Source: an uncultured Pseudomonadota bacterium (GTDB lineage: Bacteria; Pseudomonadota; Alphaproteobacteria; RUG11792). Taken from it: 46,014 nucleotides of DNA. Of this stretch, positions 5,613 through 44,004 are shown one piece after another (the stretch's first letter is position 1; each line of letters opens with the position of its first letter). The notes under the pieces were generated by a model that saw nothing but the letters and a program-made list of their open reading frames with translations, did no database searches and had not been told where the DNA came from. The stretch is from the NCBI GenBank assembly GCA_902796345.1, contig CADBOF010000041.1:1-46014 (forward strand), in the 5' to 3' direction. Made by a program: the position numbers and the translations under genes.

Positions 5613-6934
5613 TGTGTGCCTGTTGGAGTGTCTTCAAGTGTTATACCTTTGGCTAAAAGTTTTGTGCGTATTTCATCCGCAGTTATATAATCTTTGTTTT
5701 TCTTTGCTAACGTACGTTTAGCAATTTCTTCTTCTATAAGCTTTTTATTTACGACATTGCCTTTAAACCAGTCTTCTGGGCTTAAAGTCATCACTCCTAA
5801 CAAAGAACGAGCGGTATTTACAAATGTCGGAATTAAAAATTTCTGTCCACGATTAATATCGCTTACGATGTCTGACATGTAGGCAATTAACATTGGTGTA
5901 TTCAGGTCATTGGTCAGAGCATCTAACGCTTTTTTATCAATATCATTTCCGCAACGATAATTGTTTTTTATTGCTGTATACCATCTATTGAGTATGTTTT
6001 TCGCTTTAACTAAAAGTTCTTTTGAAAAATTAATAGGACTTCTATAATGTGTCATCAATAATGCTAGGCGTATTACCTCCCCTGGAAATTCATCTAATAA
6101 ATCATTAATTGTGAAGAAATTACCAAGAGATTTTGACATCTTAGTTCCATTTACTGTTACGTGCCCGTTATGTATCCAATACTTAGCAGGCATTTTATCG
6201 TTAACTACATATGACTGAGCAATTTCATTTTCATGATGAGGGAATATAAGATCGCAACCTCCGCCGTGAATATCGAATTGTTTGCCCAAGTATTTGTAAG
6301 ACATTGCAGAGCATTCGATATGCCATCCTGGGCGTCCTTTCCCCCACGGACTATCCCAGCCTATTGGAAAATTGTCATCAGCAGGTTTCCACAAAACAAA
6401 ATCTGCAGAATTACGTTTGTTGTCGGAAACTTCAATTCTTGCCCCGCTTATTCGTTCATTTACGTTTGATAATTGACCGTATTTTTCAAATTTTACTGTG
6501 TCAAAGTATATGTGACCATTTATTTCATATGCATATCCATTGGCAATTATTTTTTTTATAAATTCTATTATTTCAATAATATGATCAGTCGCGTGAGGTT
6601 CGACATCAACGGGGAGCACATTAAGCGCCAACGTGTCGGAGTGATACATCTCTGTTGCTTCATTTGTAATAGTTTTTATATCAACATTTTTTTCTTGTGA
6701 TGCTTTGTAAATTTTATCATCTATGTCTGTTATGTTTCGGACATACGTCACATTTTTATATTTATATTTCAATAGTCTATATAAAACATCAAAAATAACT
6801 GTCGGTCGTGCGTTTCCTATGTGAGGTCTATCGTATACAGTAGGTCCGCAAACATACATTCGTACATTATTGCTATCAATAGGAGTGAATTCTTCTAAAC
6901 GGTGCGTTAGTGAATTATATAATTTAATAATCAT
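5597..6934 (-). CDS. cysS: cysteinyl-tRNA synthetase
   Basis: Charges tRNA-Cys. The class I signatures are HIGN in YDRPHIGNARP near the N-terminus and KMSKSLGN near residue 265. The zinc ligands expected for CysRS are visible: Cys of YVCGPTVYD, Cys of GWHIECSAM, and the His/Glu pair in LIFPHHENE. The length of 445 aa is near the usual 460. Upstream, 48 bases separate it from the DsbA-like gene; downstream it overlaps pgpA. Confidence 0.96.
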   Translation of the reverse strand: MIIKLYNSLTHRLEEFTPIDSNNVRMYVCGPTVYDRPHIGNARPTVIFDVLYRLLKYKYKNVTYVRNITDIDDKIYKASQEKNVDIKTITNEATEMYHSDTLALNVLPVDVEPHATDHIIEIIEFIKKIIANGYAYEINGHIYFDTVKFEKYGQLSNVNERISGARIEVSDNKRNSADFVLWKPADDNFPIGWDSPWGKGRPGWHIECSAMSYKYLGKQFDIHGGGCDLIFPHHENEIAQSYVVNDKMPAKYWIHNGHVTVNGTKMSKSLGNFFTINDLLDEFPGEVIRLALLMTHYRSPINFSKELLVKAKNILNRWYTAIKNNYRCGNDIDKKALDALTNDLNTPMLIAYMSDIVSDINRGQKFLIPTFVNTARSLLGVMTLSPEDWFKGNVVNKKLIEEEIAKRTLAKKNKDYITADEIRTKLLAKGITLEDTPTGTQWKHL

Positions 6935-6982
6935 TATCTTTAGGTAATAGATATTTATAATACATATTTTAGCATCTTAACA

Positions 6983-7795
6983 TCATTGATTTATCGGAAC
7001 ATCTGCAATATTTTTATAACTTTTACCATTTTGAATGATCAATGGTAAATCAAGATTTTTATTAGGACAAAAAGGTTCTAAAATTTTTACTACACTTCTG
7101 TACCAATCCATAACAGCCTTTTCATAGTAAGCATCCATGTCAGGGATTGCAGCAACTATTTTTTCGTTAGAAAAACCAAATGCGGAAGCAATAGCTTGAT
7201 ACTTTATCATTTCTGGATCTGTTGTAGAGCCTTTGTACAAAGCTTGTTGTTGCTCTGTTGGTTTTATTGTTTTTATTGTTGCTAATGTTCGTCTAACGTA
7301 ATTTAGATAAATCATATAATATCCATTCATGTCTTTTGCTTCACTTTGAATTATTTTCATAACAAACAAGTCTTTTGCTGATACAGGTAGTAATCTTATA
7401 CGTATAAAACAATTTTGCGAATGTTTGTCTAAAAAATCTTGTAAGTCATTAACTAAAAATGTTCCGCAGTGCAAACATGACGGAGCAACGTATATGTCAA
7501 TTCGTTCAACGTCGTTGTTATGGACGTTATTTCCTAGAGTTAAATCTAATATTGCATGCACTACTACTTTTTTGTTGAGCTGTCGTTTTTTTTGTGTATT
7601 AATATTTGTTGCACCTTCCGCTTCATTTTCGTTGTTTTGATTCGTTTCAACTGCTTGTTCTTCTTCTGATGTTTTAGTTGAGGCTTGTGGCGATTGTTCA
7701 TTATGATCGTTACGCAAATCAGTATTTAGTACAACTACTTCTCCATAAGCTGTACCCAATGTACACGCCAGTGACAAAATGCTTAAATTTTTCAT
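6983..7795 (-). CDS. exported DsbA-like thiol-disulfide protein
   Basis: A predicted periplasmic thioredoxin-fold protein. It has a short signal peptide (MKNLSILSLACTLGTAYG) and then an acidic, Asn/Glu-rich linker to about residue 70. A thioredoxin-like domain follows, with its CxxC as CLHC in VAPSCLHCGTF. The C-terminal DLPLIIQNG would supply the cis-proline loop next to the active site. The helical insert between them matches the DsbA/DSBA-like layout. The partner and direction (oxidase or reductase) cannot be read from sequence. The window holds a second, unrelated exported CxxC protein at 33120-34562. This gene leads the minus-strand run into cysS and is divergent from holB. Confidence 0.75.
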   Translation of the reverse strand: MKNLSILSLACTLGTAYGEVVVLNTDLRNDHNEQSPQASTKTSEEEQAVETNQNNENEAEGATNINTQKKRQLNKKVVVHAILDLTLGNNVHNNDVERIDIYVAPSCLHCGTFLVNDLQDFLDKHSQNCFIRIRLLPVSAKDLFVMKIIQSEAKDMNGYYMIYLNYVRRTLATIKTIKPTEQQQALYKGSTTDPEMIKYQAIASAFGFSNEKIVAAIPDMDAYYEKAVMDWYRSVVKILEPFCPNKNLDLPLIIQNGKSYKNIADVPINQ

Positions 7796-7887
7796 AAAAA
7801 CGTTTATAATTAGTCTTTACAAGATTTTAACCCAAAAATTTTAATCGGGCGTTAAAAATATCTGTCACAAAAACTTATTATTGTATA

Positions 7888-14451: not shown

Positions 14452-15363
14452 ATGTGTAGTCGACAACGTAGCGAACAAAATAAAAAACGTAATTTTTTAA
14501 TTGACAATGTTTTTAAGTTTTTCAAAAAGAAAGATAGAAAACTTCTATCAAGGGACACAATAGAGGAACTAATAGAAAGTGATGAATCTGATTTAAATCA
14601 ATCTATAGCACGGAATGAACGAGAAATGATTGGAAACGTTCTTGAACTCAGGAATACGCAAGTTCAAGAGGTAATGATACCACGCACATCTATTATTTCG
14701 ATTCCAATAACAGCACCAATTGAGGAAGTTTTGGAAAAATTTGTTGATAATCAAATTTCTGCAATTCTTGTATATCGTGGAACTCTGGATAATGTTGTCG
14801 GTATGCTTCGACTAAAAGATGTTGCGAACTGGATCAATATGAACAAACCGTTTAATGCAAGTAATTTCGTCAAAGAAGTTTTATTTGTTCCGCCAACAAT
14901 GCGTACGCTTGATTTGCTATTTAAAATGAAAGAAAGCGGCATTAAGGTTGCTACTGTAATAGACGAATACGGGGGAGTAGATGGGATTGTATCATTTATA
15001 GATTTGATTGAAGAAATAATTGGAGATATTAAAGATGCATCAGATATAAAACATAATAAAAAAAAGGTTATAAGAAACGCTGATGGAACAGTATCTGTTG
15101 ACGGGCAATCAACATTCGATGAAATAAAAAAATATGGAAATATTGAAATTAAACCTATTGATGACGACATTGATACGATAGGAGGAATGTTATCATCAAT
15201 TCTTGGTCGTGTGCCGACTAAAGGAGAGCTTATAACGTTATCAGAGCAAAACCTCGAATTTGAAGTGTTAGATGCAGATCCACGCAAAGTAAAGATATTA
15301 AAAATAAAACAAATAAAACAGAATATGTCAGAAAATTCTGTTCTGAAATCAATGGCAATGTAA
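14452..15363 (+). CDS. corC: CorC/TlyC-type CBS-domain protein
   Basis: A cytoplasmic CBS-pair protein with a C-terminal CorC_HlyC domain, associated in the family with magnesium/cobalt efflux. The N-terminus lacks the transmembrane DUF21 domain, as in the short CorC form. The conserved block VQEVMIPRTSI precedes the first CBS motif, and VIDEYGGVDGIVS closes the second. The C-terminal IGGMLSSILGRVPTKGE marks the CorC_HlyC domain. It follows ybeY by nine bases; lnt, often next in this cluster, is absent. Confidence 0.92.
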   Translation: MCSRQRSEQNKKRNFLIDNVFKFFKKKDRKLLSRDTIEELIESDESDLNQSIARNEREMIGNVLELRNTQVQEVMIPRTSIISIPITAPIEEVLEKFVDNQISAILVYRGTLDNVVGMLRLKDVANWINMNKPFNASNFVKEVLFVPPTMRTLDLLFKMKESGIKVATVIDEYGGVDGIVSFIDLIEEIIGDIKDASDIKHNKKKVIRNADGTVSVDGQSTFDEIKKYGNIEIKPIDDDIDTIGGMLSSILGRVPTKGELITLSEQNLEFEVLDADPRKVKILKIKQIKQNMSENSVLKSMAM

Positions 15364-15436
15364 CATGTTATGTTTTATTACTTTTAGTATGATGTTTTAT
15401 ATTTATATTATTAATGTATTATAGTTACTTGTAAAA

Positions 15437-17929
15437 ATGAGCAATAAATTAAAACCAAACAAAATATTAATAAGAGGAGCAAAAGTACATAACCTTAAAA
15501 ATATTGATATAGAAATACCTTTAAACAAGATAGTCGGGATAGCGGGGGTTTCTGGCTCAGGAAAGTCCTCGCTTGCGTTGGGCGTTTTGTACGCCGAAGG
15601 ATCAAGAAGGTATCTAGAAGCACTTTCGACTTACACAAGACGAAGAATGAGTCAATCACCAAAAGCCGATGTTGACGAGGTTTTATATATTCCCGCTTCT
15701 CTTGCTCTTCATCAGAGACCTTCAGTTCCTGGAATACGTTCGACATTTGGAACTAGCACTGAATTGCTTAACAATTTAAGACTTATGTTTTCAAGGCTTG
15801 CAAGTCATCGCTGTCCTAACGGTCATTACTCAGAACCTACTTTAGCAGTAGCTTCTGGTAAAGAAATAATTTGTGAAGTGTGTAGTGAGTGTTTTTTTGC
15901 TCCCGGAGCAGAGCAACTAGCTTTCAATAGTCAAGGAGCATGTAAAAAATGTGATGGCACTGGCACTGTTAGAACCGTTGATATATCAACGCTTGTACCA
16001 GATGAAAACTTAAGTATAGATGAAGGAGCTGTTGCACCGTGGAAAACTTTAATGTGGTCTCTAATGATTGATGTGTGTCGAGAAATGGGGGTAAGAACCA
16101 ATATACCATTCAAAAATTTAACCAATGAGGAAAAAGAAATAGTATATAGAGGAAAGCCCGAAAAGAAACATATTTTATACAAGTCAAAAACAACTAATTT
16201 AGCAGGAGAGCTAGATTTTACATATTACAGCGCAATACGTACAGTTGAAAATGCTCTATCAAAAGTACAAGACGAAAAAGGAATGAAGAGAGTTGAAAAA
16301 TTTTTAAAAGAGGAGTTGTGTCCTGATTGCTTCGGGACACGTCTTTCAGAAATTGCACGAATGCCGAAATTAAGAAATATGTCACTTGATGAAGTTTGTA
16401 ATATGACATTATCTGAAGTTGTCGATTGGGTAAACGGTATTCCTAAATCCTTGCCTGAAAAAATGCGTCCGATGGCAGAAGCAATTTGTGAAAGTTTTAA
16501 TGTACCTGCGAAAAAATTAATTGATCTAGGTTTAGATTATATTTCGCTAGATAGAGCAAGCTCTACATTATCGACTGGTGAACGTCAAAGAATGCAGTTA
16601 GCTAGAGTTGTTAGAAACCGTACTACTGGCGTCCTATATATTCTCGATGAACCGTCAATAGGACTACACCCGTCCAATATTGCTGGGTTAATAACAGTAA
16701 TGAACGACCTTGTTTCCGATGGCAATTCGGTTGTTCTTGTTGATCATGATGCTCAAATACTTTCAAAAGCTGATTGGATTGTTGAATTGGGCGAAGGATC
16801 TGGAATTAATGGTGGTAACGTAATAAATACAGGAACTATTGCTGAAACAATAAAAAATCCTTTGTCAAAGATAGGAAGGTTTCTATCTGGCGATTATAAT
16901 CCAAGGGTACGACCAACAGCTACAGACTGTATATTTAAACGCGGTACGATTGATATGAAAATTGACAAAATTCATACTGTCAAGCCTTTAAGTTTAAAAA
17001 TTCCAAAATGTCGATTTACTGTTGTAACAGGAGTTTCAGGGTCCGGTAAAACAACGCTTATTTTAGAAAGTCTTGTTCCTGCAATTGAATGCAACATTTC
17101 AGGCAAGAGGTTACCGCAACATATCATTAATATTAATGCCGACGGAATAAGACAAATAAAACTTATTGACGCAACACCAATCGGTGCAAATGTTCGATCA
17201 ACTGTTGCAACTTATGTAAATGTACACGACGAATTAAGAAAAGTTTTTGCTAAAACTTCCGCACAATATAAAGCTGGTGATTTTTCATATAACACTGGTT
17301 CGCTAAGATGTACTACATGTGACGGAACTGGAATAATAAATCTTGATGTACAGTTTTTACCTGATGTTGAAATTACATGTCCTGAATGTCGTGGATCGCG
17401 ATACTCAAAAACAGTTGAACAAATAAAGTATAAAGATCGTTCTTTATCTGATGTTATGAAATTGGAAATTAATAATGTAATAGATATGTTTCAAGATATT
17501 CCTGTAATTAAACAACGCTTAGAGAAATTGTGTAGTTTAGGTATAGGCTACTTAACTCTTGGAGAAGCAACAACAACACTGTCAGGCGGAGAAGCTCAAA
17601 GATTAAAATTGTCTTTTGAAATTGGCAGAAAACAAGAAAATACTATTTTTGTTTTTGATGAGCCAACTATCGGTTTACATCCTCTTGACGTTCGTTCTTT
17701 ACTAAAAGTATTTCAAAAATTAATTGAAAAAGACGCAACTGTTGTTGTAATAGAGCACGATTTAGATGTTGTTGCAAACGCTGATTACGTTGTGGATATG
17801 GGATTAAATGGAGGAGAAAAAGGCGGAGAAATTATTTTTACTGGAACTCCTGAAGAACTTACAAAATCCACTGTATCAAAAACTGGAAAGTATTTAAAAA
17901 AAGTTATAAACAGTTGCGGGAGCTGTTAA
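15437..17929 (+). CDS. class II UvrA-like ABC ATPase lacking the UvrB-binding domain
   Basis: A tandem ABC ATPase of the UvrA family. First half: Walker [10 protein letters not shown] at 37-45, signature [10 protein letters not shown] near 378. Second half: Walker [10 protein letters not shown] near 532, signature [10 protein letters not shown] near 715. Zinc fingers are visible as CEVCSEC..CKKC and CTTC..CPEC (with HFLPD-like QFLPDV). It has 830 residues against about 940 in housekeeping UvrA. The missing part is the block between the CPNG and CEVC cysteines, where the UvrB-binding domain sits. That is the hallmark of UvrA2/DrrC-type proteins, linked to DNA-damage or drug tolerance. A canonical uvrA would have to lie outside the window. 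Confidence 0.85.
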
Positions 17930-22214: not shown

Positions 22215-23897
22215 ATGAAAAAACTTCTACTCACTGGCATATTTGCAATATTTGGAACAATCATCTACGGAACCACAAACGTTACCCAAGCATCAGCCAT
22301 CCCCATAATAGACGGAGGGGGTGTGGTTCCTTTAACGGATCCTACGGATATAGGAACATTGACTGTAGATGCAGGTGCGGCATCTACATGGGAACAAAAC
22401 CCAGCTGGATATAGGATTAAAGGAACGGTGACGATAAATTTTGAGCCACCGAGTCCGATGATGTCAGGGAATACCGGACTTACAGCCAAACAGAGCGTAA
22501 CAATACTTTCAGGTGGAAAATTAATTGTGAACGGTGGTGATGCATCCTTCGAAGAAGAATTAATTGCAAGCGATCAATCTGAAATAACAACATCCACCAT
22601 AGATCTAGGAGGTAGAATACGTCCTGCAGTAATAAATGTTGACAAAAGATTAAAATTAATAGGAGTGCCTGTTTTAAATGGACAGCCAATAATAAAAGTA
22701 CGAGGACAAGTTTCTGACAACATTCCAAGACGGATAATGAACGGAGAACCTCCGACGGTAACAACAGATGGTATTTTTGATGCTTCAGAAGTTAACGGAG
22801 TTTTGCAAGAAATGACCATTAATGGTGGATATTTGTTAGATAAAACAGTATCAGAGCCCGAAACGAATAGAACAAACACTGCAGAAAAGAACACAGGAAA
22901 TACATTTTTGGGGTACTATAGCACCGAAGATACAGGTGACATGGATTATTTTGCCAATGCAGATTTTCCTCTTCGCCTGTATGACATAGGAGATGAGACA
23001 ACAAGAACAAATTATGCTAACGCAATCAAAGAGCGATTGTCACGTTTAATTTCCAGTAAAAAGCCTAACAATTCTACAAATAATAATGCGAATTATTTAA
23101 AAAATGTAACATTAAATAATGTAAAAATACAAGATCATATAATAGAAAAAGCTGACACTGCTGTTACTTATAATTCAACGAGCAAATCAGTCTCATATGA
23201 TGGAGCTATAAAAACTATAATAACGAATGCAGATGGAGTTTATACACGTTATCAAGCAGAAAAAAAAGGCCTGATAGTAGTTGACGCCCCAAATACAGAA
23301 GTTAATTTCGATTTCTACTCGAACTTTAACACAGAAGAGAAAAACGATAATAAAAATTCGTTTATTAAGTGGCCGGAAAACATTCAGATCGCTTTATCAT
23401 CGTATGATGGTTCTAACACAGAATTTGAATTCAAAACAAAGCTTGCGTACAACAAAGACTTATCTGTAACTAATGGTTCTGTAAGCTTTTCAAAATTAAT
23501 TTTTTCAGGAGATAATACCGGATTCGTAAGCAACAAGGTAAAGTTAAACGACAAACTAAATGAAGTAAACTTTGCTGCATCCAATAGTTATGTTGCTGTA
23601 GATTTTACATCATGCAATCCAGAGAATAAATCGTTTTTATTAAAATTTTTAGACGAGAGCGGAACAAACGATATTAAAAGACCTCCAATTTCTCTTGGAG
23701 ACCAAAAGATAACTTTTGATACTGGAGCAGGAAATAATATAACGTTTAATGAACAAGTTGAAATTCCTACCATAGATTCAGGCTCTGGCATAATTGATGC
23801 TTACCAACCAAAACTTACAAGATATGAATTTGATAGTTTCATTATGGGGGACGCGTCAACTGTTACAGTAAACAGAGGGGCAGAATTAGTTATATAA
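22215..23897 (+). CDS. exported beta-solenoid-like protein A, paralogue of the gene at 41538
   Basis: A 560-aa protein with a Sec signal peptide (MKKLLLTGIFAIFGTIIYG, cleavage near TQASA). I set the start at the ATG at 22215 because AAAGGA lies just upstream; the frame is open to 22185. The N-terminal third alternates short beta strands with Gly/Asn turns (VTILSGGKLIVNGG), like autotransporter passenger or pectate-lyase-type solenoids. A more charged, helical middle follows (TFLGYYSTED, IKERLSRLISS), then a second beta-rich part (NTEFEFKTKL from residue 401, SGDNTGFVSNKVKLN). It ends in ELVI with no outer-membrane beta-barrel or sorting signal. It shares layout and many blocks with the protein at 41538-42977. 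The function is unknown; a surface or secreted structural role is inferred. Confidence 0.8.
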   Translation: MKKLLLTGIFAIFGTIIYGTTNVTQASAIPIIDGGGVVPLTDPTDIGTLTVDAGAASTWEQNPAGYRIKGTVTINFEPPSPMMSGNTGLTAKQSVTILSGGKLIVNGGDASFEEELIASDQSEITTSTIDLGGRIRPAVINVDKRLKLIGVPVLNGQPIIKVRGQVSDNIPRRIMNGEPPTVTTDGIFDASEVNGVLQEMTINGGYLLDKTVSEPETNRTNTAEKNTGNTFLGYYSTEDTGDMDYFANADFPLRLYDIGDETTRTNYANAIKERLSRLISSKKPNNSTNNNANYLKNVTLNNVKIQDHIIEKADTAVTYNSTSKSVSYDGAIKTIITNADGVYTRYQAEKKGLIVVDAPNTEVNFDFYSNFNTEEKNDNKNSFIKWPENIQIALSSYDGSNTEFEFKTKLAYNKDLSVTNGSVSFSKLIFSGDNTGFVSNKVKLNDKLNEVNFAASNSYVAVDFTSCNPENKSFLLKFLDESGTNDIKRPPISLGDQKITFDTGAGNNITFNEQVEIPTIDSGSGIIDAYQPKLTRYEFDSFIMGDASTVTVNRGAELVI

Positions 23898-23917
23898 GAA
23901 TATTTGTTTTTTATTAT

Positions 23918-23954
23918 AAAACCTGTTGACAAAGTTATTTGTTACACAGGTTTT
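23918..23954. terminator. bidirectional terminator between solenoid gene A and dnaA
   Basis: AAAACCTGT at 23918-23926 pairs with ACAGGTTTT at 23946-23954. The stem extends inwards through TGACAAA and TTTGTTA with one bulge and one mismatch, leaving a GTTA loop. A-rich and T-rich flanks on both sides suit termination in both directions between the convergent genes ending at 23897 and 23972. Confidence 0.7.
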
Positions 23955-23971
23955 ATTGTAATTTGTAGCGA

Positions 23972-33119: not shown

Positions 33120-34562
33120 ATGAATAGAGTTCTAATTCCCAGTTTAGGTTTACTGATACTATCAGATATTTCTAATTCAATGACACCAGTGTATTCAGCT
33201 CAAGCGAGTGCGGATTTTAATAACAACCAAAATGGACAACCATCAAATGGTAATCAAAATGGAAGAAATCAGCAAAATGGAACATTCCAAAATGGTAATT
33301 ATCAAAGCAATACTGGTTATGTGAACTCAAACAATCAGAACGGTTATTCAAATAACAACGGCGTTAACAACGGGCAAATGGGGAACACTCAACCAACGAC
33401 ATTTACGAATAGAAGTAATGGCAATGCTTCCGTAAACAATTATGGACAAAACAGTTTTAACCAAAACAATAATAACGGATACAATAGTAACAGTGATAGA
33501 AACGGAAGCAATACAAATAATCAAAATGCAAATAATAATTTTAACGTTCAATCTAACAATGCGCAGCCTAATACTTTTACAGAAAATTACACATTAAAAG
33601 GAAGGCCGTTTAATGCCTATGTATATAAAAAAGATGCCGACGGTCGTTTATACAAGATGCGTTTAAATTCGCAAGATTTACAAAAAGCAATAATAATATT
33701 TTTTGGGGATTGGTGTCCTCATTGTTCAAGGTTTTTAGGAAATTTTTCAAGAAATATGCCATCGTTAACGCAAGCTGGAGTAAAAATAATATTTATTGGC
33801 GTTCCTTCAATTGATAGATTACAAAATTGGAGAGAACCAACAGATGCCGATTTTAACGAACATTTTCAAAAATTAAGTAGTTTTGGCATTCAACTAGGAA
33901 ATAATTCAGAACTTGTATTGCTTGGTGATAAAGCGAGCTTAAATAATAACGTAGTTGATAGCTTACCGACAATGATGGCTGTCAGTAATGGACGAGAATG
34001 TTTTCGTGGCGGAGCGGATAACTCTATTGAAAAAGTTGAATTTAATAATCAAGACGCAATAGGACAATTTTTACAAGTATTTAATTCATTCGGAAGTCAA
34101 AATGTGGCGAATTCTAATAACTACAATAATAACAATGTTCAACAGCCGTATTCTAACAATATTTATAAGCCGTCAAAAACGCGTAATACTTCAAAAACGA
34201 CGTATCACGGAAAAATTAACGCTGACAGAACTAACATGTTTACAGAAATGCTAAACAATAATTGTAATTGGTCTTGTGCTGTAAAAAAATGGGCTCCGCC
34301 ATCAGTTGTTTATTCTGCACCATCGTTATGTCCTCCATGCCCAGTTTGTCCTGTGTGTCCACAATGTTCCACCCCTGTAAATCAATCTTCAATAGTGCAA
34401 AATCCAGTGCAAGAAATTGATGGAAACTATTCCAAACCTAAAGATATAGACACGTGTACAACATGTGGATGCATGTTAAAACGAGCAATAAAAAAGAGAT
34501 GTAGTTTTGACCAACCGCCTAAGAAATGTCGAACGAGAAAGTGTTGCAAAAAACAATATTAG
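33120..34562 (+). CDS. exported thioredoxin-like protein with Asn-rich linker and Cys-rich tail
   Basis: A 480-aa exported protein. The signal peptide spans about the first 28 residues (ending VYSAQA). Residues about 33-160 are low complexity, dominated by Asn, Gln, Gly and Ser. A thioredoxin-like domain follows (about 165-330) with the active site W198-CPHC in FFGDWCPHCSRF and a DSLPTMMAV cis-proline block. A second Asn-rich linker leads to a basic C-terminal tail with 13 Cys, including CPPCPVCPVCPQC at 404-416 and CTTCGC and KCC further on. It could be an envelope thiol oxidoreductase cross-linked to, or coating, the cell wall. A GGAACG precedes the ATG. No close family is recognised beyond the thioredoxin fold. 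PBP2 starts seven bases downstream. Confidence 0.8.
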   Translation: MNRVLIPSLGLLILSDISNSMTPVYSAQASADFNNNQNGQPSNGNQNGRNQQNGTFQNGNYQSNTGYVNSNNQNGYSNNNGVNNGQMGNTQPTTFTNRSNGNASVNNYGQNSFNQNNNNGYNSNSDRNGSNTNNQNANNNFNVQSNNAQPNTFTENYTLKGRPFNAYVYKKDADGRLYKMRLNSQDLQKAIIIFFGDWCPHCSRFLGNFSRNMPSLTQAGVKIIFIGVPSIDRLQNWREPTDADFNEHFQKLSSFGIQLGNNSELVLLGDKASLNNNVVDSLPTMMAVSNGRECFRGGADNSIEKVEFNNQDAIGQFLQVFNSFGSQNVANSNNYNNNNVQQPYSNNIYKPSKTRNTSKTTYHGKINADRTNMFTEMLNNNCNWSCAVKKWAPPSVVYSAPSLCPPCPVCPVCPQCSTPVNQSSIVQNPVQEIDGNYSKPKDIDTCTTCGCMLKRAIKKRCSFDQPPKKCRTRKCCKKQY

Positions 34563-38027: not shown

Positions 38028-39287
38028 ATGTTGAGTATTGGTTTGTTTTCTTTATTTGTATTATTTGGATCTGGGATTGGTTTATTTTTGTATGAACCAA
38101 AGGATACAACAAATGTTTCAAATTCTGAGCCACAGTGCACAAGTAGGCCGTGTGTAGATTCTGTTGCGAAAAATATGCGTACGAACAAAACTGATATTAC
38201 TGTTGTTAACAATGATTGCTCTAAACTTCCGTCATTTTGTGAAAAATTAAAACGGGACGTTAACCAGTTTATGGAATTTAAAACAGAATCTTTAAAAGAC
38301 GTGACAGATCCAAATATAAAAATATGTAGATTTAATTCAGGAAGTGATAATGGTATAACGGCATCATGTTTGAACGCTTTTATACACTTAGATATCGATA
38401 ACGAATGTGACAATCCATTTTTTAAAAAACTTATGGAAAAATTGCGTCAAGAACAAAAATCTGTTAATGATATTTCAACTACTATTAATCCTCATAGCAT
38501 TATTCACGATATCTTTAATGAACTAGGAGAAGATGTTGTATTACAAAATATTGCTGATAATGAACGTAACGCTCTAAAGAATTGTTTACTTAATGGTGGT
38601 AATAATCCGTTTGAATTCATGACTGCGTTGTATAAAATCTGCGGATTGGAACAAAATGAAAGATTTACTCGATCTGTTATTAACAAAGAGAACGGAACAA
38701 AAACTGTGGATTCTCCGTGTCTCCGATTAACGCCACCTCTGTCCCCAGAAGAGATATTGCATGGCTCGAATCAATTTTCTGCACAACAACTGTTCGACAT
38801 CGTTAAATATCAAGGATTTAATAGGGTTGTTTATGTGAACCAAAATGATTACTGGATGCGTGAGTGGAAGCGTAAGCATTCAATAAATTTCCCAACGAGA
38901 TGTTTGTGTTTATCTTTTGACACCCTGTTACCAGCTGTAAATTTAGTCATGGCAAAATTCTATTACAATTATCACATCGGTGAATTTGCTCTATCCGACT
39001 CTAAAGATTATATCCTTAAAGCGTTGATTTGTTGTACTTTGAGCAAAAATGAAATATTAGAAATGAAACAACATAGTATATTAAACATAAACAAAAAGTA
39101 TTCGTGCATTTTGAATAACCCCTCAGGAAAAAACAGTTCAACGCTTGTTGTTATAGATCCAACAAGCGAAAAACTGGTCTTGAATGTAAACACTGGTTTT
39201 ATGCCTATTGAAGCTATGATAGGAGCTTTAAAAATTGACGACAACAATTATCGTGTTCCAATAATGGCATTTTACGAAAAAAAATAA
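38028..39287 (+). CDS. membrane-anchored protein of unknown function, 419 aa
   Basis: One N-terminal hydrophobic segment (MLSIGLFSLFVLFGSGIGLFL) would anchor or export a soluble body of about 395 residues. The body is rich in Cys (over a dozen), with SRPCVDS, NNDCSKLPSFCEK, TASC and RCLCLSF. It looks mixed alpha/beta, with a Tyr/Trp-rich core (FNRVVYVNQNDYWMREWKRK). I recognise no family or catalytic motif. It is flanked by opposite-strand genes, so it is a single-gene unit. An exported effector or enzyme is possible; nothing decides this. Confidence 0.65.
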   Translation: MLSIGLFSLFVLFGSGIGLFLYEPKDTTNVSNSEPQCTSRPCVDSVAKNMRTNKTDITVVNNDCSKLPSFCEKLKRDVNQFMEFKTESLKDVTDPNIKICRFNSGSDNGITASCLNAFIHLDIDNECDNPFFKKLMEKLRQEQKSVNDISTTINPHSIIHDIFNELGEDVVLQNIADNERNALKNCLLNGGNNPFEFMTALYKICGLEQNERFTRSVINKENGTKTVDSPCLRLTPPLSPEEILHGSNQFSAQQLFDIVKYQGFNRVVYVNQNDYWMREWKRKHSINFPTRCLCLSFDTLLPAVNLVMAKFYYNYHIGEFALSDSKDYILKALICCTLSKNEILEMKQHSILNINKKYSCILNNPSGKNSSTLVVIDPTSEKLVLNVNTGFMPIEAMIGALKIDDNNYRVPIMAFYEKK

Positions 39288-39315: not shown

Positions 39316-41268
39316 CTATTTTATAGCGATAGTATTTAATATTCCGCGTATACTTTCCGGATTGTTTATTGTCGTCAAATCTTCAAAATCTTTTATATTT
39401 CCTGATGCTATATGTCTTAATATGCGACGTAATATCTTTCCCGATCGCGTTTTAGGTAGGTCAGGAACAATTGACACTATATCAGGTTTTGTTATTGGGC
39501 TTATAACATCCTTTACATGCTTGATTATTGCGTCAATATGATTATTTATAACATCTGTTGCTTTTGATTTAATATCATTTGTGACGTCTTTTTTAAGAAC
39601 AACAAAGGCATAAATTCCTTCACCCTTGATTGGGTGAGGGTACCCTACAACACAGACTTCGGCAACGATATCTAACTCAGCTATAACCTCTTCTATCTCT
39701 ATAGGACTTATGCGGTGACCTGAAACGTTTAATACATCATCATTACGCCCTGTGATCCAAAAATTACCATCACAATCAAAATACGCTTCATCTCCACAAC
39801 AGTAGAGTTTTTCAGTAGTTTGAGAATAGTAGAGATTTTTAAGGGAGCCATTAACAACATCAATCAGCATGCCTGGCATTGAATATTGTATAAATAAAGC
39901 TCCTTTTGTTTCTGGTTTTGTTATCGTGACATCGTTTTCATCTTTGAGGATCAACTTACAGCCAAAAAATTGCCTGCCTATATGTCCGTACGTTTTCATT
40001 TCTTCCAAATTGCTGAGTGGAGCAGTTGGAACTCCACCAAGTTCTGTTTGCCCCCACATATTAACTATTGGACAACGTTCTTTACCAATTTTATTAAAGT
40101 ACCAATACCAAGCATCTTTATTTAAAATTTCTCCAAAAACTCCTAAATATTTTAACGAATCAAGCGATACATTATTTAATACTTTGTCGCCATATTGCAT
40201 CATAGCTCTTATTACAGTAGGAGCAGTATTAAATGATGTTATTTTGTGTTTATCGATTATTTCCCACAATATTGAATGTCTAGGATATGTAGGTATGCCT
40301 TCATAAAATACAGATGTAATACCGTTACAAAGTGCGGAATACAGTGCATAAGCATGACCGCCCATCCACCCTATATCTCCCGATCCCCAAAAAATTTCAT
40401 TTTCAAACATATTGAAAAAATATTTCCCAGTTAGCATTGAAAATAGTAAAAAGCCTCCCGTACTCATTACAATTCCTTTAGGTTTTCCAGCAGAACCTGA
40501 AGTATATAAAATAAATAATTTATCAGTTGCTGATGTATCAGTTATAGGACACTTGCATGACATACCATTAGACATATCGTAATAATCAAAATCTTGTTTA
40601 TCATTCCAATCAATATTTATTCCTTTGCGTTTTACAACAAGACATTTAACAGGATAATCTAGAATTTTACGTGCTTCGTCTATATTTAATTTCATTGGGA
40701 TTGTTTTACCACCACGGGTATTGGCATCAACAGTTACTACAAAATTTGACTTACAGTCGTTCATACGCATTGCTACTGCGTTAGGAGAAAAACCAGCAAA
40801 TACAGCGGTATAAGGAATGCCCAAACGTGTACATGCGAGGCATGCATACACAGCTTCGGGCACCATGGGCATATAAACTGTTATGCAATCATCACGTGTT
40901 AACCCAAAAGTTTTGATCGTATTAGCAAATTTACACACTTCATCTTTTAGTTTTTTATATGTTATATATTCACACGTGTCAAAATGCTCGCTTTGCCATA
41001 TTATCGCGATCTTGTCAGGTGAAACTTCAGCATGGCGATCGACGCAGTTGTAGCAGGCATTTATTCGTCCATCAGGAAACCATAGTATTGCTCCATTTTC
41101 GGATTTTTTAGTCGTAATTTTAGGTAACACATTCCAAGACAATCGATCTATTTGTGACATCCAATATGCTTCTGGTTCTGAAAGAGAATAATTGTAAATT
41201 TCTTTGTATATATTAATATTTCTCCAGGCGTTATCATTATGTAATAATTCATAACTTGGAATTTTCAT
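39316..41268 (-). CDS. acs: acetyl-CoA synthetase (AMP-forming)
   Basis: Activates acetate to acetyl-CoA through an acetyl-adenylate. The adenylate-forming motifs are YTSGSAGKPKGIV (core P-loop, with Ala replacing the usual Thr), MWGQTELGG and GRNDDVLNVSGHRISPIEIEE. The C-terminal PKTRSGKILRRIL contains the catalytic Lys that is acetylated in relatives. The length of 650 aa is standard. Propionyl-CoA synthetase is the main alternative; length and N-terminal EAYWMSQIDRLSW favour the Acs/PrpE group in general. Confidence 0.9.
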   Translation of the reverse strand: MKIPSYELLHNDNAWRNINIYKEIYNYSLSEPEAYWMSQIDRLSWNVLPKITTKKSENGAILWFPDGRINACYNCVDRHAEVSPDKIAIIWQSEHFDTCEYITYKKLKDEVCKFANTIKTFGLTRDDCITVYMPMVPEAVYACLACTRLGIPYTAVFAGFSPNAVAMRMNDCKSNFVVTVDANTRGGKTIPMKLNIDEARKILDYPVKCLVVKRKGINIDWNDKQDFDYYDMSNGMSCKCPITDTSATDKLFILYTSGSAGKPKGIVMSTGGFLLFSMLTGKYFFNMFENEIFWGSGDIGWMGGHAYALYSALCNGITSVFYEGIPTYPRHSILWEIIDKHKITSFNTAPTVIRAMMQYGDKVLNNVSLDSLKYLGVFGEILNKDAWYWYFNKIGKERCPIVNMWGQTELGGVPTAPLSNLEEMKTYGHIGRQFFGCKLILKDENDVTITKPETKGALFIQYSMPGMLIDVVNGSLKNLYYSQTTEKLYCCGDEAYFDCDGNFWITGRNDDVLNVSGHRISPIEIEEVIAELDIVAEVCVVGYPHPIKGEGIYAFVVLKKDVTNDIKSKATDVINNHIDAIIKHVKDVISPITKPDIVSIVPDLPKTRSGKILRRILRHIASGNIKDFEDLTTINNPESIRGILNTIAIK

Positions 41269-41537: not shown

Positions 41538-42977
41538 ATGAACAAAATTTTATTAAAATCTCTAGCTATAGTTTCGCTCATTGAATTAGGACAGGCAGAT
41601 TCCACAACTATCACAGTTCCAATAACAGTAATGGCTGGCAATCACTTAAATTTAGAAAATGCAGACAGTTATGACATCTCAGCTGAAGTTAGAGTAAGTG
41701 GCGACGATGATTACGCAAGTACACTTACAGCAACAAAGCCTGTTACGATAACAACAAATGGATCGTTGCAAATTGCAGGTAATGCAACAGCAACATTTAA
41801 CGATACATTAACAATTGGTAATGGTGGAACAGTAAACTTAATCCCAACAGGTATGAAGGTACCATTAATAAATGTAAAAGATAATCTTACTTACATCGGT
41901 AAAGTCTTTGCGTGGGCAACTGACGGTTCAGAAATCAGCATACACAAAAAAGACGGAAAGCAAAAAGCACTGTTTGACATATCAAGACAAACGTCTGACA
42001 GCTATTGTACTACACCTGTTAACGGAAACAATCAAACATTTTTGGAATATTATAATTCTACAGCCGATCTGACAAGTGCAGGTTACACAGAAGAATTAGA
42101 TTCTCTTGAGAGATTACAAGACTCTAACGATGCCAAAAAGGACGACCTCGTTAACATATTAAGAACTAGGCTAACAAATTATCTTGGTAATACAAACAAC
42201 TCAGTTCTCAAAAATATGAAAATGCAAGATTACCTAGTATCGGTCGGAAACAGCGATATTACTATTTCCGATACAAATGAAGTAAAATATGTAATAGATG
42301 GCACGGAAACATTGATAAGAACCAACGAAAGTACTAAAAATGTCGTAGAAGCAAAAGATGGGCTATCTCTTATTAGGGCTGATGGTACTGGAATATTTGA
42401 CTTTTATACAGCATTTAATACGCAAGGAGAAAACAGCTCAATACCAAATACAGCAGGAAATTCGTTTGTACAATGGTCAGATAATGTACAATTGCCATTA
42501 TCAAATGAAACATCAAACAATACTGAGTTTGATTTTAAAACAAATTTTGCTCCATCTGAAGAATATAAAAATGATTTATATATAACAAATGGAGTTCAAA
42601 ACGTTGAAACAGTAAAATTTACAGGCGATAATAGCACTTTTACAAATAAAGTCGTATTAAATGGGACATTACATAATGTTGAGTTTGGATACCAAAATGG
42701 ATACATATCAATAGATGCCACAAATGTTACTGATGACATAATATTAACAATACAAAATGGAACAAATAGTAATCAAGGAACCAACAATATAACTAACATT
42801 CCAATTGTGCGTGACGAGCAAAAAGTGACGTTCTCGACTGGGGATTACAATACAGTTAATTTCAGCTCTGCCGACGCCACAGAAAAAATTTATCATTTTG
42901 ACACCTTCAATATGGGAACTGGTTCAGTAATAAACATTGGCGATGATGATCATCAAGGTATAACCTTAGTTCTTTAA
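41538..42977 (+). CDS. exported beta-solenoid-like protein B, paralogue of the gene at 22215
   Basis: A 479-aa protein with a short signal peptide (MNKILLKSLAIVSLIELGQA). AGGAG at 41524-41528 supports this start. The order of parts matches protein A: a Thr/Asn-rich beta-solenoid-like N-terminus (VTITTNGSLQIAGNATATF), a helical middle (TFLEYYNST, ILRTRLTNYLG, LKNMKMQDYL), then a beta-rich part. There, DFYTAFN, NTEFDFKTNFA (from residue 328), FTGDNSTFTNKVVLN and YHFDTFNMGTGSV correspond to DFYSNFN, NTEFEFKTKLA, FSGDNTGFVSNKVKLN and YEFDSFIMGDAST in A. It ends in GITLVL and has no beta-barrel. A surface or secreted structural role is inferred; function is unknown. It is divergent from acs and followed by a strong terminator. 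Confidence 0.8.
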   Translation: MNKILLKSLAIVSLIELGQADSTTITVPITVMAGNHLNLENADSYDISAEVRVSGDDDYASTLTATKPVTITTNGSLQIAGNATATFNDTLTIGNGGTVNLIPTGMKVPLINVKDNLTYIGKVFAWATDGSEISIHKKDGKQKALFDISRQTSDSYCTTPVNGNNQTFLEYYNSTADLTSAGYTEELDSLERLQDSNDAKKDDLVNILRTRLTNYLGNTNNSVLKNMKMQDYLVSVGNSDITISDTNEVKYVIDGTETLIRTNESTKNVVEAKDGLSLIRADGTGIFDFYTAFNTQGENSSIPNTAGNSFVQWSDNVQLPLSNETSNNTEFDFKTNFAPSEEYKNDLYITNGVQNVETVKFTGDNSTFTNKVVLNGTLHNVEFGYQNGYISIDATNVTDDIILTIQNGTNSNQGTNNITNIPIVRDEQKVTFSTGDYNTVNFSSADATEKIYHFDTFNMGTGSVINIGDDDHQGITLVL

Positions 42978-43009: not shown

Positions 43010-43045
43010 TCGGTTCGGATTATTATGTAATGTAATCCGAACCGA
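43010..43045 (+). terminator. strong hairpin terminator after solenoid gene B
   Basis: TCGGTTCGGATTA at 43010-43022 and TAATCCGAACCGA at 43033-43045 form a perfect 13-bp stem with a 10-base loop, followed by TATATTGTATT. It separates the solenoid B gene from tolQRA. Confidence 0.75.
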
Positions 43046-43236: not shown

Positions 43237-44004
43237 ATGAATGATCAGGTATTGCAATCAGCAACTTCATTACAGACTGGACAACAAATCGTTAACGGAA
43301 TTAATGCTAATGGTGTAATTCAACCGGCTGCTGATAGTTCTATTTTTTCTTATTTTTGGCATGCGAGTTTTCTTATTAAAATAGTAATTTTGTCTCTCAT
43401 TATCGCATCTATATATTCGTGGGCGTTGATTATATCTAATCGAATAAAATTAAAACGATTAAACAAAGAAGCTGACTATTTCGAAGAAGAATTTTGGTCT
43501 GGAAATCCGCTTGATAGTTTATATAAACAAGTTCGTAATGTAGCCACAGACCCTATGACAACGGTTTTTTGTGTGGCAATGTCTGAGTGGGAGCAAGCTA
43601 TGCAAGACGGTCATACACAGACAGAAACTTTAATACTACGTGTTGAAAAAGCAATGGAGGTTGCCATTAATCGAGAAACTGCTGATTTAGAAAAAGGTTT
43701 GCCAATGTTATCTGGGATAGGTACGAATGGCGTAATAATAGGATTGTTTGGAACAGTACTTGGAATATTGAACGGATTTAAAACGATTGCAATGCAACAA
43801 AGCGCCTCAATTGCGGTACTTGGTCCAATAATAAGCGAAGCACTTGTAACAACAGCTTTTGGAATAATTACTGCAATTCCTGCAGCGTTTGGTTATAACA
43901 AACAACGTTCAACAATTAATAGATATATAAAACGGTTAGAAATATTTGCTGAGGATTTCAGCTTAATTATTTCGAGACAAACTGGCACTGTTACGGAACA
44001 GTAG
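43237..44004 (+). CDS. tolQ: TolQ proton-channel subunit
   Basis: Inner-membrane component of the Tol-Pal motor, which pulls the outer membrane inwards at division. It has three TM segments: about 45-68, and a pair formed by LSGIGTNGVIIGLFGTVLGILNGF and ISEALVTTAFGIITAIPAAFGYNKQ. The Thr residues in these two helices, which line the proton path in TolQ/ExbB, are kept. The tandem with tolR and tolA favours TolQ over ExbB. The length of 255 aa is slightly above average because of an N-terminal extension. Confidence 0.93.
   Translation: MNDQVLQSATSLQTGQQIVNGINANGVIQPAADSSIFSYFWHASFLIKIVILSLIIASIYSWALIISNRIKLKRLNKEADYFEEEFWSGNPLDSLYKQVRNVATDPMTTVFCVAMSEWEQAMQDGHTQTETLILRVEKAMEVAINRETADLEKGLPMLSGIGTNGVIIGLFGTVLGILNGFKTIAMQQSASIAVLGPIISEALVTTAFGIITAIPAAFGYNKQRSTINRYIKRLEIFAEDFSLIISRQTGTVTEQ

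Follow-up and report, generated by a model that had tools for sequence, protein, structure and literature searches.

A family of proteins that is new to the sequence libraries we searched, and that is restricted to a single bacterial genus, is represented twice in the window, as we call the whole stretch of 46,014 nucleotides analyzed here, which comes from an uncultured alphaproteobacterium. Its two genes in the window are named B and A (Table 1). Our preferred explanation, to which we give a probability of about one-half, is that B is part of a multigene family, confined to the genus, whose exported products resemble beta-solenoids and which supplies a bacterium of reduced genome with a recombining surface or secreted repertoire at the host-cell interface.

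Table 1. Gene B, its parts and surroundings, and the other family members of the same genome (positions are those of the window unless a contig is named)
Feature	Position	Strand	Size or extent	Remarks
Gene B	41538..42977	+	479 aa	ORF and translation; family profile E about 1e-206
Acyl-CoA/acetoacetyl-CoA synthetase-type gene	39316-41268	-		One neighbor of B
tolQ	43237-44004	+		Other neighbor of B
Signal-peptide-like N-terminus of B, MNKILLKSLAIVSLIELGQA	41538..41597	+	aa 1-20	Translation read directly
N-terminal beta-solenoid-like domain of B (predicted)	41595..41897	+	aa 20-120	AlphaFold2; leave-one-out profile
TFLEYY block and predicted helical linker of B	42036..42185	+	aa 167-172 (block); about aa 168-216 (linker)	pLDDT below 40
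C-terminal beta-rich, solenoid-like region of B (predicted)	42483..42974	+	about aa 316-479	Model; shared C-terminal motif
Stretch identical in B and the C32 paralogue	42396..42436	+	41 nt; codons 287-300	Alignment
Longer run shared without change by B and C32; central part of the putative gene-conversion tract	42547..42625	+	79 nt; codons 337-363	Alignment; site patterns
Transcription-terminator-like hairpin after B	43010..43045	+	13-bp perfect stem	1 found vs 0.7 expected
Gene A, paralogue of B	22215..23897	+	560 aa from internal ATG	Between pnp and dnaA
Hairpin after A	23911..23961	+
C32 member	C32:3901-5415		505 aa	55% identity to B
C25 member	C25:934-2394		487 aa	About 52% identity to B
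C22 member	C22:16105-18120		672 aa	About 34% identity; insert of ~160 residues in the N-terminal half
Two C37 members	Tandem on C37		293 and 374 aa	N-terminal half and YY block, without the C-terminal half

Homology of the two genes in the window

The first-pass annotation had described a second, unlinked paralogue of A at the position of B, and an ORF of 479 aa is indeed found there, about 18 kb from A on the same contig. For A itself, the ORF caller places the start at TTG 22185; we use the internal ATG. BLASTP with composition-based adjustment aligns B (167-479) with A over 352 columns (126 bits, E=2e-35, 32% identity); the global identity is about 34%. All five blocks that had been recognized by eye are present in this alignment and occur in the same order, namely (B/A) TFLEYY/TFLGYY, DFYTAFN/DFYSNFN, NTEFDFKT/NTEFEFKT, FTGDN/FSGDN, and FDTFNMG/FDSFIMG.

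The possibility that these blocks merely reflect composition was addressed with leave-one-out profiles, in which the N- and C-terminal halves were each modeled from the remaining members and the left-out protein was scored against 1000 shuffles of itself. Each half of each member exceeded all of its shuffles: the C-terminal half of A reached 141.8 bits against 7.7 for the best shuffle and the N-terminal half of B 125.6 bits, with the weakest scores coming from the N-terminal half of A (18.0 bits against 7.5) and the C-terminal half of the member from the sister species G001 (16.8 against 8.4). At the sequence level we therefore regard the homology of A and B as confirmed and a purely compositional origin of the blocks as refuted. 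The further claim that the two share their full domain order holds in that both halves beat their shuffles, but for the N-terminal half of A it does so weakly and by way of the wider family. A profile built from the B group alone (B, C32, C25, and the orthologue in the sister species G002) detects the C-terminal half of A and misses its N-terminal half, so that for the first 40% of A the shared order rests on the wider family. Membership of the A/B solenoid family is defined by C-terminal homology (TFLxYY, DFYxxFN, NTEFxFKT, F[ST]GDN), which was found, together with N-terminal homology, which was also found by the leave-one-out profiles, weakly in the case of A.

Predicted fold and export

The full-length members open with a signal-peptide-like segment and close with a conserved hydrophobic terminal strand such as GITLVL; in B the C-terminal region terminates in the conserved ...G-x-T-L-[VI]-[LVI], a motif common to the members. 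The signal-peptide-like pattern recurs in the paralogues of B (e.g., ...GLGQA, ...GTGYA), and the translations of B, C32, and C25 show no lipobox cysteine near the predicted cleavage site.

The AlphaFold2 model of B, computed from a three-sequence alignment that combined window proteins with one related locus, has a mean pLDDT of 51, which is unevenly distributed. Residues 20-120 form short, regularly spaced strands at pLDDT 70-89 (mostly 80-89), the middle, which includes a helical segment at about 180-216, stays under 50, and the C-terminal part is low before residue 350 and about 55-84 thereafter (about 68-84 at 430-479). The model of A, likewise from three sequences, is poorer (mean pLDDT 46) and displays the same layout of two strand-rich ends flanking a helical middle; the comparison of predicted structures that had been suggested thus yields a common layout between two low-confidence models. 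A Foldseek search of the PDB with the model of B returned no match below E=0.001, with query TM-scores below 0.25. The best-ranked entries, none of them significant, are beta-solenoids: the L. reuteri SRRP adhesin (5nxk), an ice-binding protein, antigen 43 (7koh), and TibA (4q1q). Fold searches in viral libraries gave no significant match. The solenoid of the earlier description is modeled with confidence only for about residues 20-120 of B and with moderate confidence for 430-479, the middle being of low confidence. Judged from the models, a beta-solenoid fold is likely for the family. The earlier proposal that the proteins are envelope-associated or secreted is suggested by the signal-peptide-like N-termini and this partly confident solenoid model.

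A multigene family in one reduced genome

The genome that contains the window (G000), a draft assembly of 747,058 bases in 43 contigs, was searched first with B and then with the family profile. It encodes at least seven members, five of them full length (A, B, C32, C25, and C22) and two consisting of the N-terminal half only; the earlier suspicion that more members might exist elsewhere was thus borne out by three further full-length and two partial copies. The two partial ORFs on C37 could be partial cassettes, but they too have starts and stops of their own. A hairpin of 13-16 bp lies just past the stop codon of each of the five full-length genes, which suggests single-gene transcripts. The members other than B adjoin unrelated housekeeping genes, namely pnp/dnaA, frr, groES, nuoD, and dnaQ. 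As the 0.75-Mb genome keeps seven copies, amounting to about 10 kb of coding sequence, it is probably under selection to hold them.

Distribution and gain of copies

Among 35 genomes of the taxonomic family, members were found in only three, all of the same genus, and in none of the other 32. In G001 and G002, the other two species sampled from the genus, one member apiece was found, a count that may be too low as both genomes are ~93% complete. In G002, an orthologue of B occupies the same place between the synthetase gene and tolQ. It is broken at two contig ends (the end of C2, L011:1255-1842, and the start of C16, L014:1-459), and about 35 residues present in B are missing, in frame, from its C-terminal half. 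Repeat-rich genes break assemblies, and such a break is as expected if paralogous repeats disturb the assembly. In G001, the single member is a diverged protein of 487 aa (about 22% identity) encoded beside a miaB-type gene, and the gene order after the synthetase gene differs.

We located the housekeeping genes that flank the G000 members in both sister species and read the intervening content. In G002, the frr-marR gap measures about 0.3 kb at the site that holds the C22 member in G000, and no more than 0.2 kb separates groES from the next conserved gene at the site of the two C37 members; both are clean empty sites. G002 also has no member beside pnp or dnaQ, but there the neighbor on the other side differs, and these are hence not clean empty sites. 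No member was found beside pnp, nuoD, frr, or dnaQ in G001. The nuoD locus of G002, which stops at a contig end, and the groEL contig of G001, which stops too early, were left uncounted. The C25 and C32 members are also alike outside the genes, over 117 bp on the upstream side (85%) and about 106 bp on the downstream side (76%), and thus look like the products of a duplication that included promoter and terminator; clear flank sharing is otherwise seen only between B and its own orthologue in G002. These observations fit the earlier description of the family as old and expanding, and point to recent duplication as well. The B locus is older than the divergence of G000 and G002, and G001 has a member of about 22% identity; seven members in G000 stand against one found in each sister species, and there are the empty sites.

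Beyond the genus, a class-wide genome sample gave nothing save one marginal match (G043, E=0.001), which was set aside as a single short stretch of a 1525-aa frame; a match in G017 was rejected because the ORF encodes enolase. Scanning genome contigs with the family alignment returned pattern matches and no relatives. Neither Pfam nor NCBIfam lists the family (for A and B, Pfam gave no match even with E allowed up to 10), the PHROGs gave only chance-level matches, and the phage, plasmid, and viral-contig collections contain no match, leaving no relatives outside one genus in the collections searched. A PDB sequence match to a T-cell-receptor chain (E=0.046) was rejected as chance.

Probable gene conversion between B and C32

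An exchange of DNA between copies is a finding that goes beyond the first-pass annotation. The coding sequences of B and C32 are 65% identical overall, yet they contain 79 consecutive identical bases (reached in 0 of 1000 codon shuffles), with a second identical run of 41 bases a little upstream. Where the two genes encode the same residue, they use the same codon at 25 of 26 positions inside the 79-bp run and at 130 of 236 outside it. Separate trees of the N- and C-terminal halves did not resolve, and recombination was thus tested by site patterns with B, C32, and, as the third sequence, the G002 orthologue of B (10000 shuffles). Across the C-terminal half, 27 consecutive sites among 160 informative ones unite B with C32 against the orthologue; the longest such run among the 10000 shuffles was 24, so that none reached 27. 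Across the N-terminal half, B agrees with its orthologue at 80 informative sites and with C32 at 65. Identities follow suit, with B being closer to the orthologue in the N-terminal half (53% vs 45% for C32) and closer to C32 in the C-terminal half (68% vs 64%).

Such a tract is the usual signature of gene conversion, here apparently after the species split. That it might instead stem from an assembly artefact or from strong local purifying selection deserves mention since the window comes from a draft assembly in 43 contigs and the tract lies in the coding region that is best conserved across the family. We nevertheless consider this improbable: purifying selection on the protein does not yield the difference in identical codon choice, B is closer to C32 than to its orthologue mainly within the tract and closer to the orthologue in the N-terminal half, and the downstream flank of B matches that of the orthologue, which argues against a simple misjoin of the contig. 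The tract involves one pair in ten pairwise comparisons, and exchange may therefore be rare.

The bacterium and its likely setting

G000 encodes a complete ATP/ADP translocase (TLC family) at G000:C25:4392-5861 (-) (E=1.7e-190), and 32 of the 35 genomes of the taxonomic family possess one. NTT transporters are commonly regarded as the mark of an intracellular lifestyle, although relatives of such transporters occur in free-living bacteria as well (PMC5381601). The translocase combined with the small genome makes life inside a rumen eukaryote likely, and, as far as gene content can tell, the bacterium with its 0.75-Mb genome is probably intracellular; a ciliate as the host is our guess. The set of metagenome-assembled genomes that includes the records of the genus is of rumen origin. 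We did not adopt an assignment of the lineage to the order Rs-D84, which has been reported to be devoid of respiratory chains (PMC12306168), since G000 has an ORF read as nuoD.

Comparison with known systems

Lineage-specific families of exported repeat proteins are a known kind in intracellular bacteria, and such families usually mark the interface between bacterium and host. The chlamydial Pmps resemble the present family in being lineage-expanded paralogues, and two accounts describe them as having beta-helical passenger domains and as mediating host interaction in an obligate intracellular bacterium (PMC10715098, PMC11166332). They are, however, autotransporters that have a barrel at the C terminus and contain FxxN/GGA[ILV] repeats, whereas the A/B family has neither a barrel nor a Pfam match. 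The Anaplasma MSP2/P44 proteins are also paralogues in an intracellular alphaproteobacterium with a small genome, and undergo segmental gene conversion between copies (PMC11946796), to which the putative B/C32 tract offers a counterpart. They differ in that they are outer-membrane proteins of PF01617 whose genes comprise a single expression site plus silent copies; the A/B family has five full-length open genes, each with its own 3' hairpin, and we saw no single expression site with silent truncated cassettes. Functionally the family resembles both Pmps and MSP2/P44 and is a member of neither, as it lacks the barrel of the former and the layout of silent cassettes and expression site of the latter. 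The beta-solenoid adhesins and ice-binding proteins noted above provide the best-ranked, non-significant structural matches to the model of B, and they show no sequence relation to it.

Nearer at hand, the genus has a type Va autotransporter, which is exported in the same cells, as the A/B family probably is, and has a repetitive, strand-rich passenger; it differs in carrying PF03797 and has no sequence homology to the family detectable by profile. This ORF of 1642 aa lies at G000:C12:30327-35252 (L053:2328-7253), its barrel being recognized by the genome search, and has single orthologues in G001 and G002, so that each genome has one such ORF over the cut-off. When the whole protein was scanned directly against Pfam at E 0.01, no family was returned, in disagreement with the genome search.

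Proposed mechanism and alternatives

We propose that each gene of the family would form its own transcription unit and that its product would be exported by Sec, folding into N- and C-terminal beta-solenoids joined by a helical or coil linker. The host-cell interface would be its site of action, with the protein either displayed on the bacterial surface or located outside the cell. New copies would arise by duplication of the gene along with its promoter and terminator; gene conversion would swap stretches of the C-terminal region between copies, partly homogenizing them, while the N-terminal halves diverge. The set of copies would constitute a repertoire of related yet different binding surfaces. 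Exchange of DNA between copies may let the bacterium change what the host cell sees. Surface exposure is the weakest step, since no member has an outer-membrane anchor or a known secretion domain: no PF03797 barrel was found in A or B, which have no Pfam match, and the members are not among the PF03797 matches of the genome.

For this reason the proteins could stay in the periplasm. The main rival to surface exposure accordingly holds that they are structural proteins of the periplasm or inner envelope, which serve envelope maintenance and whose copies are dosage or condition-specific variants. In its favor are the signal-peptide-like N-termini, unaccompanied by a domain for outer-membrane translocation, and the place of B beside the envelope gene tolQ, which is conserved in G002. 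The other members, however, adjoin unrelated genes, the absence of the family from the other genomes of the taxonomic family speaks against a core envelope function, and low conservation with recombination better fits exposed proteins; we consider a periplasmic role unlikely, though it is a serious competitor. More doubtful is the idea that the family is related to an autotransporter passenger yet barrel-less, or that a partner exports its proteins through two-partner or TolC-type secretion. G000 and both sister species do possess one large PF03797-barrel autotransporter, and a TolC-type protein is present in G000, but the family profile finds no match in the autotransporter ORF, and Pfam detects neither an RTX domain nor the TPS domain (PF05860) that would identify a TpsA protein. 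A search for a ShlB/FhaC-type partner (PF03865) gave no match in G000, but was equally silent in the control genomes. Least credible is cargo of mobile elements or phages. It would account for the patchy insertion between housekeeping genes, but phage, plasmid, and viral collections have no match, nor do the PHROGs, the ORF lists reveal no recognizable transposase beside the members, and flanks are common only to C25 and C32.

A more speculative extension of the surface-repertoire explanation, which we hold only tentatively and think rather unlikely as it stands, is that a barrel-less beta-solenoid family serves as the recombining surface repertoire of an intracellular symbiont of rumen protists, i.e., in a host without antibodies. 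Variation driven by gene conversion would then resemble that of vertebrate pathogens, with a single-celled host as its target. Should the copies be both exposed and recombining in natural populations, they would offer a route to the study of recognition between rumen bacteria and their protist hosts.

Other exported and unusual proteins

Several exported-looking proteins cluster around groEL and the two tandem N-terminal-half members (G000:C37:6562-19100). Some are highly acidic and repetitive (e.g., 421 aa at 6562-7827), and one of the proteins (14779-15906) corresponds, at 45% identity, to a protein encoded beside groES in G002. Unrelated to the A/B family is a second family of exported proteins, about 570-630 aa long, encoded at G000:C22:9457-11334 (-) (L016) and G000:C8:8005-9255 (+) (L054); it has no Pfam match and solenoid-like C-terminal repeats (e.g., SGDLSQYTG). 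G002 also has members of it (C6), and G001 has one of double length (C12). Within the window, positions 38028-39287 (+) encode a protein of 419 aa that starts with a membrane segment and for which Pfam gives no match, and positions 33120-34562 (+) encode a 480-aa protein of unusual architecture, in which a long Asn/Gly/Gln-rich N-terminal region precedes a thioredoxin-like (AhpC-TSA) domain and a cysteine-rich tail.
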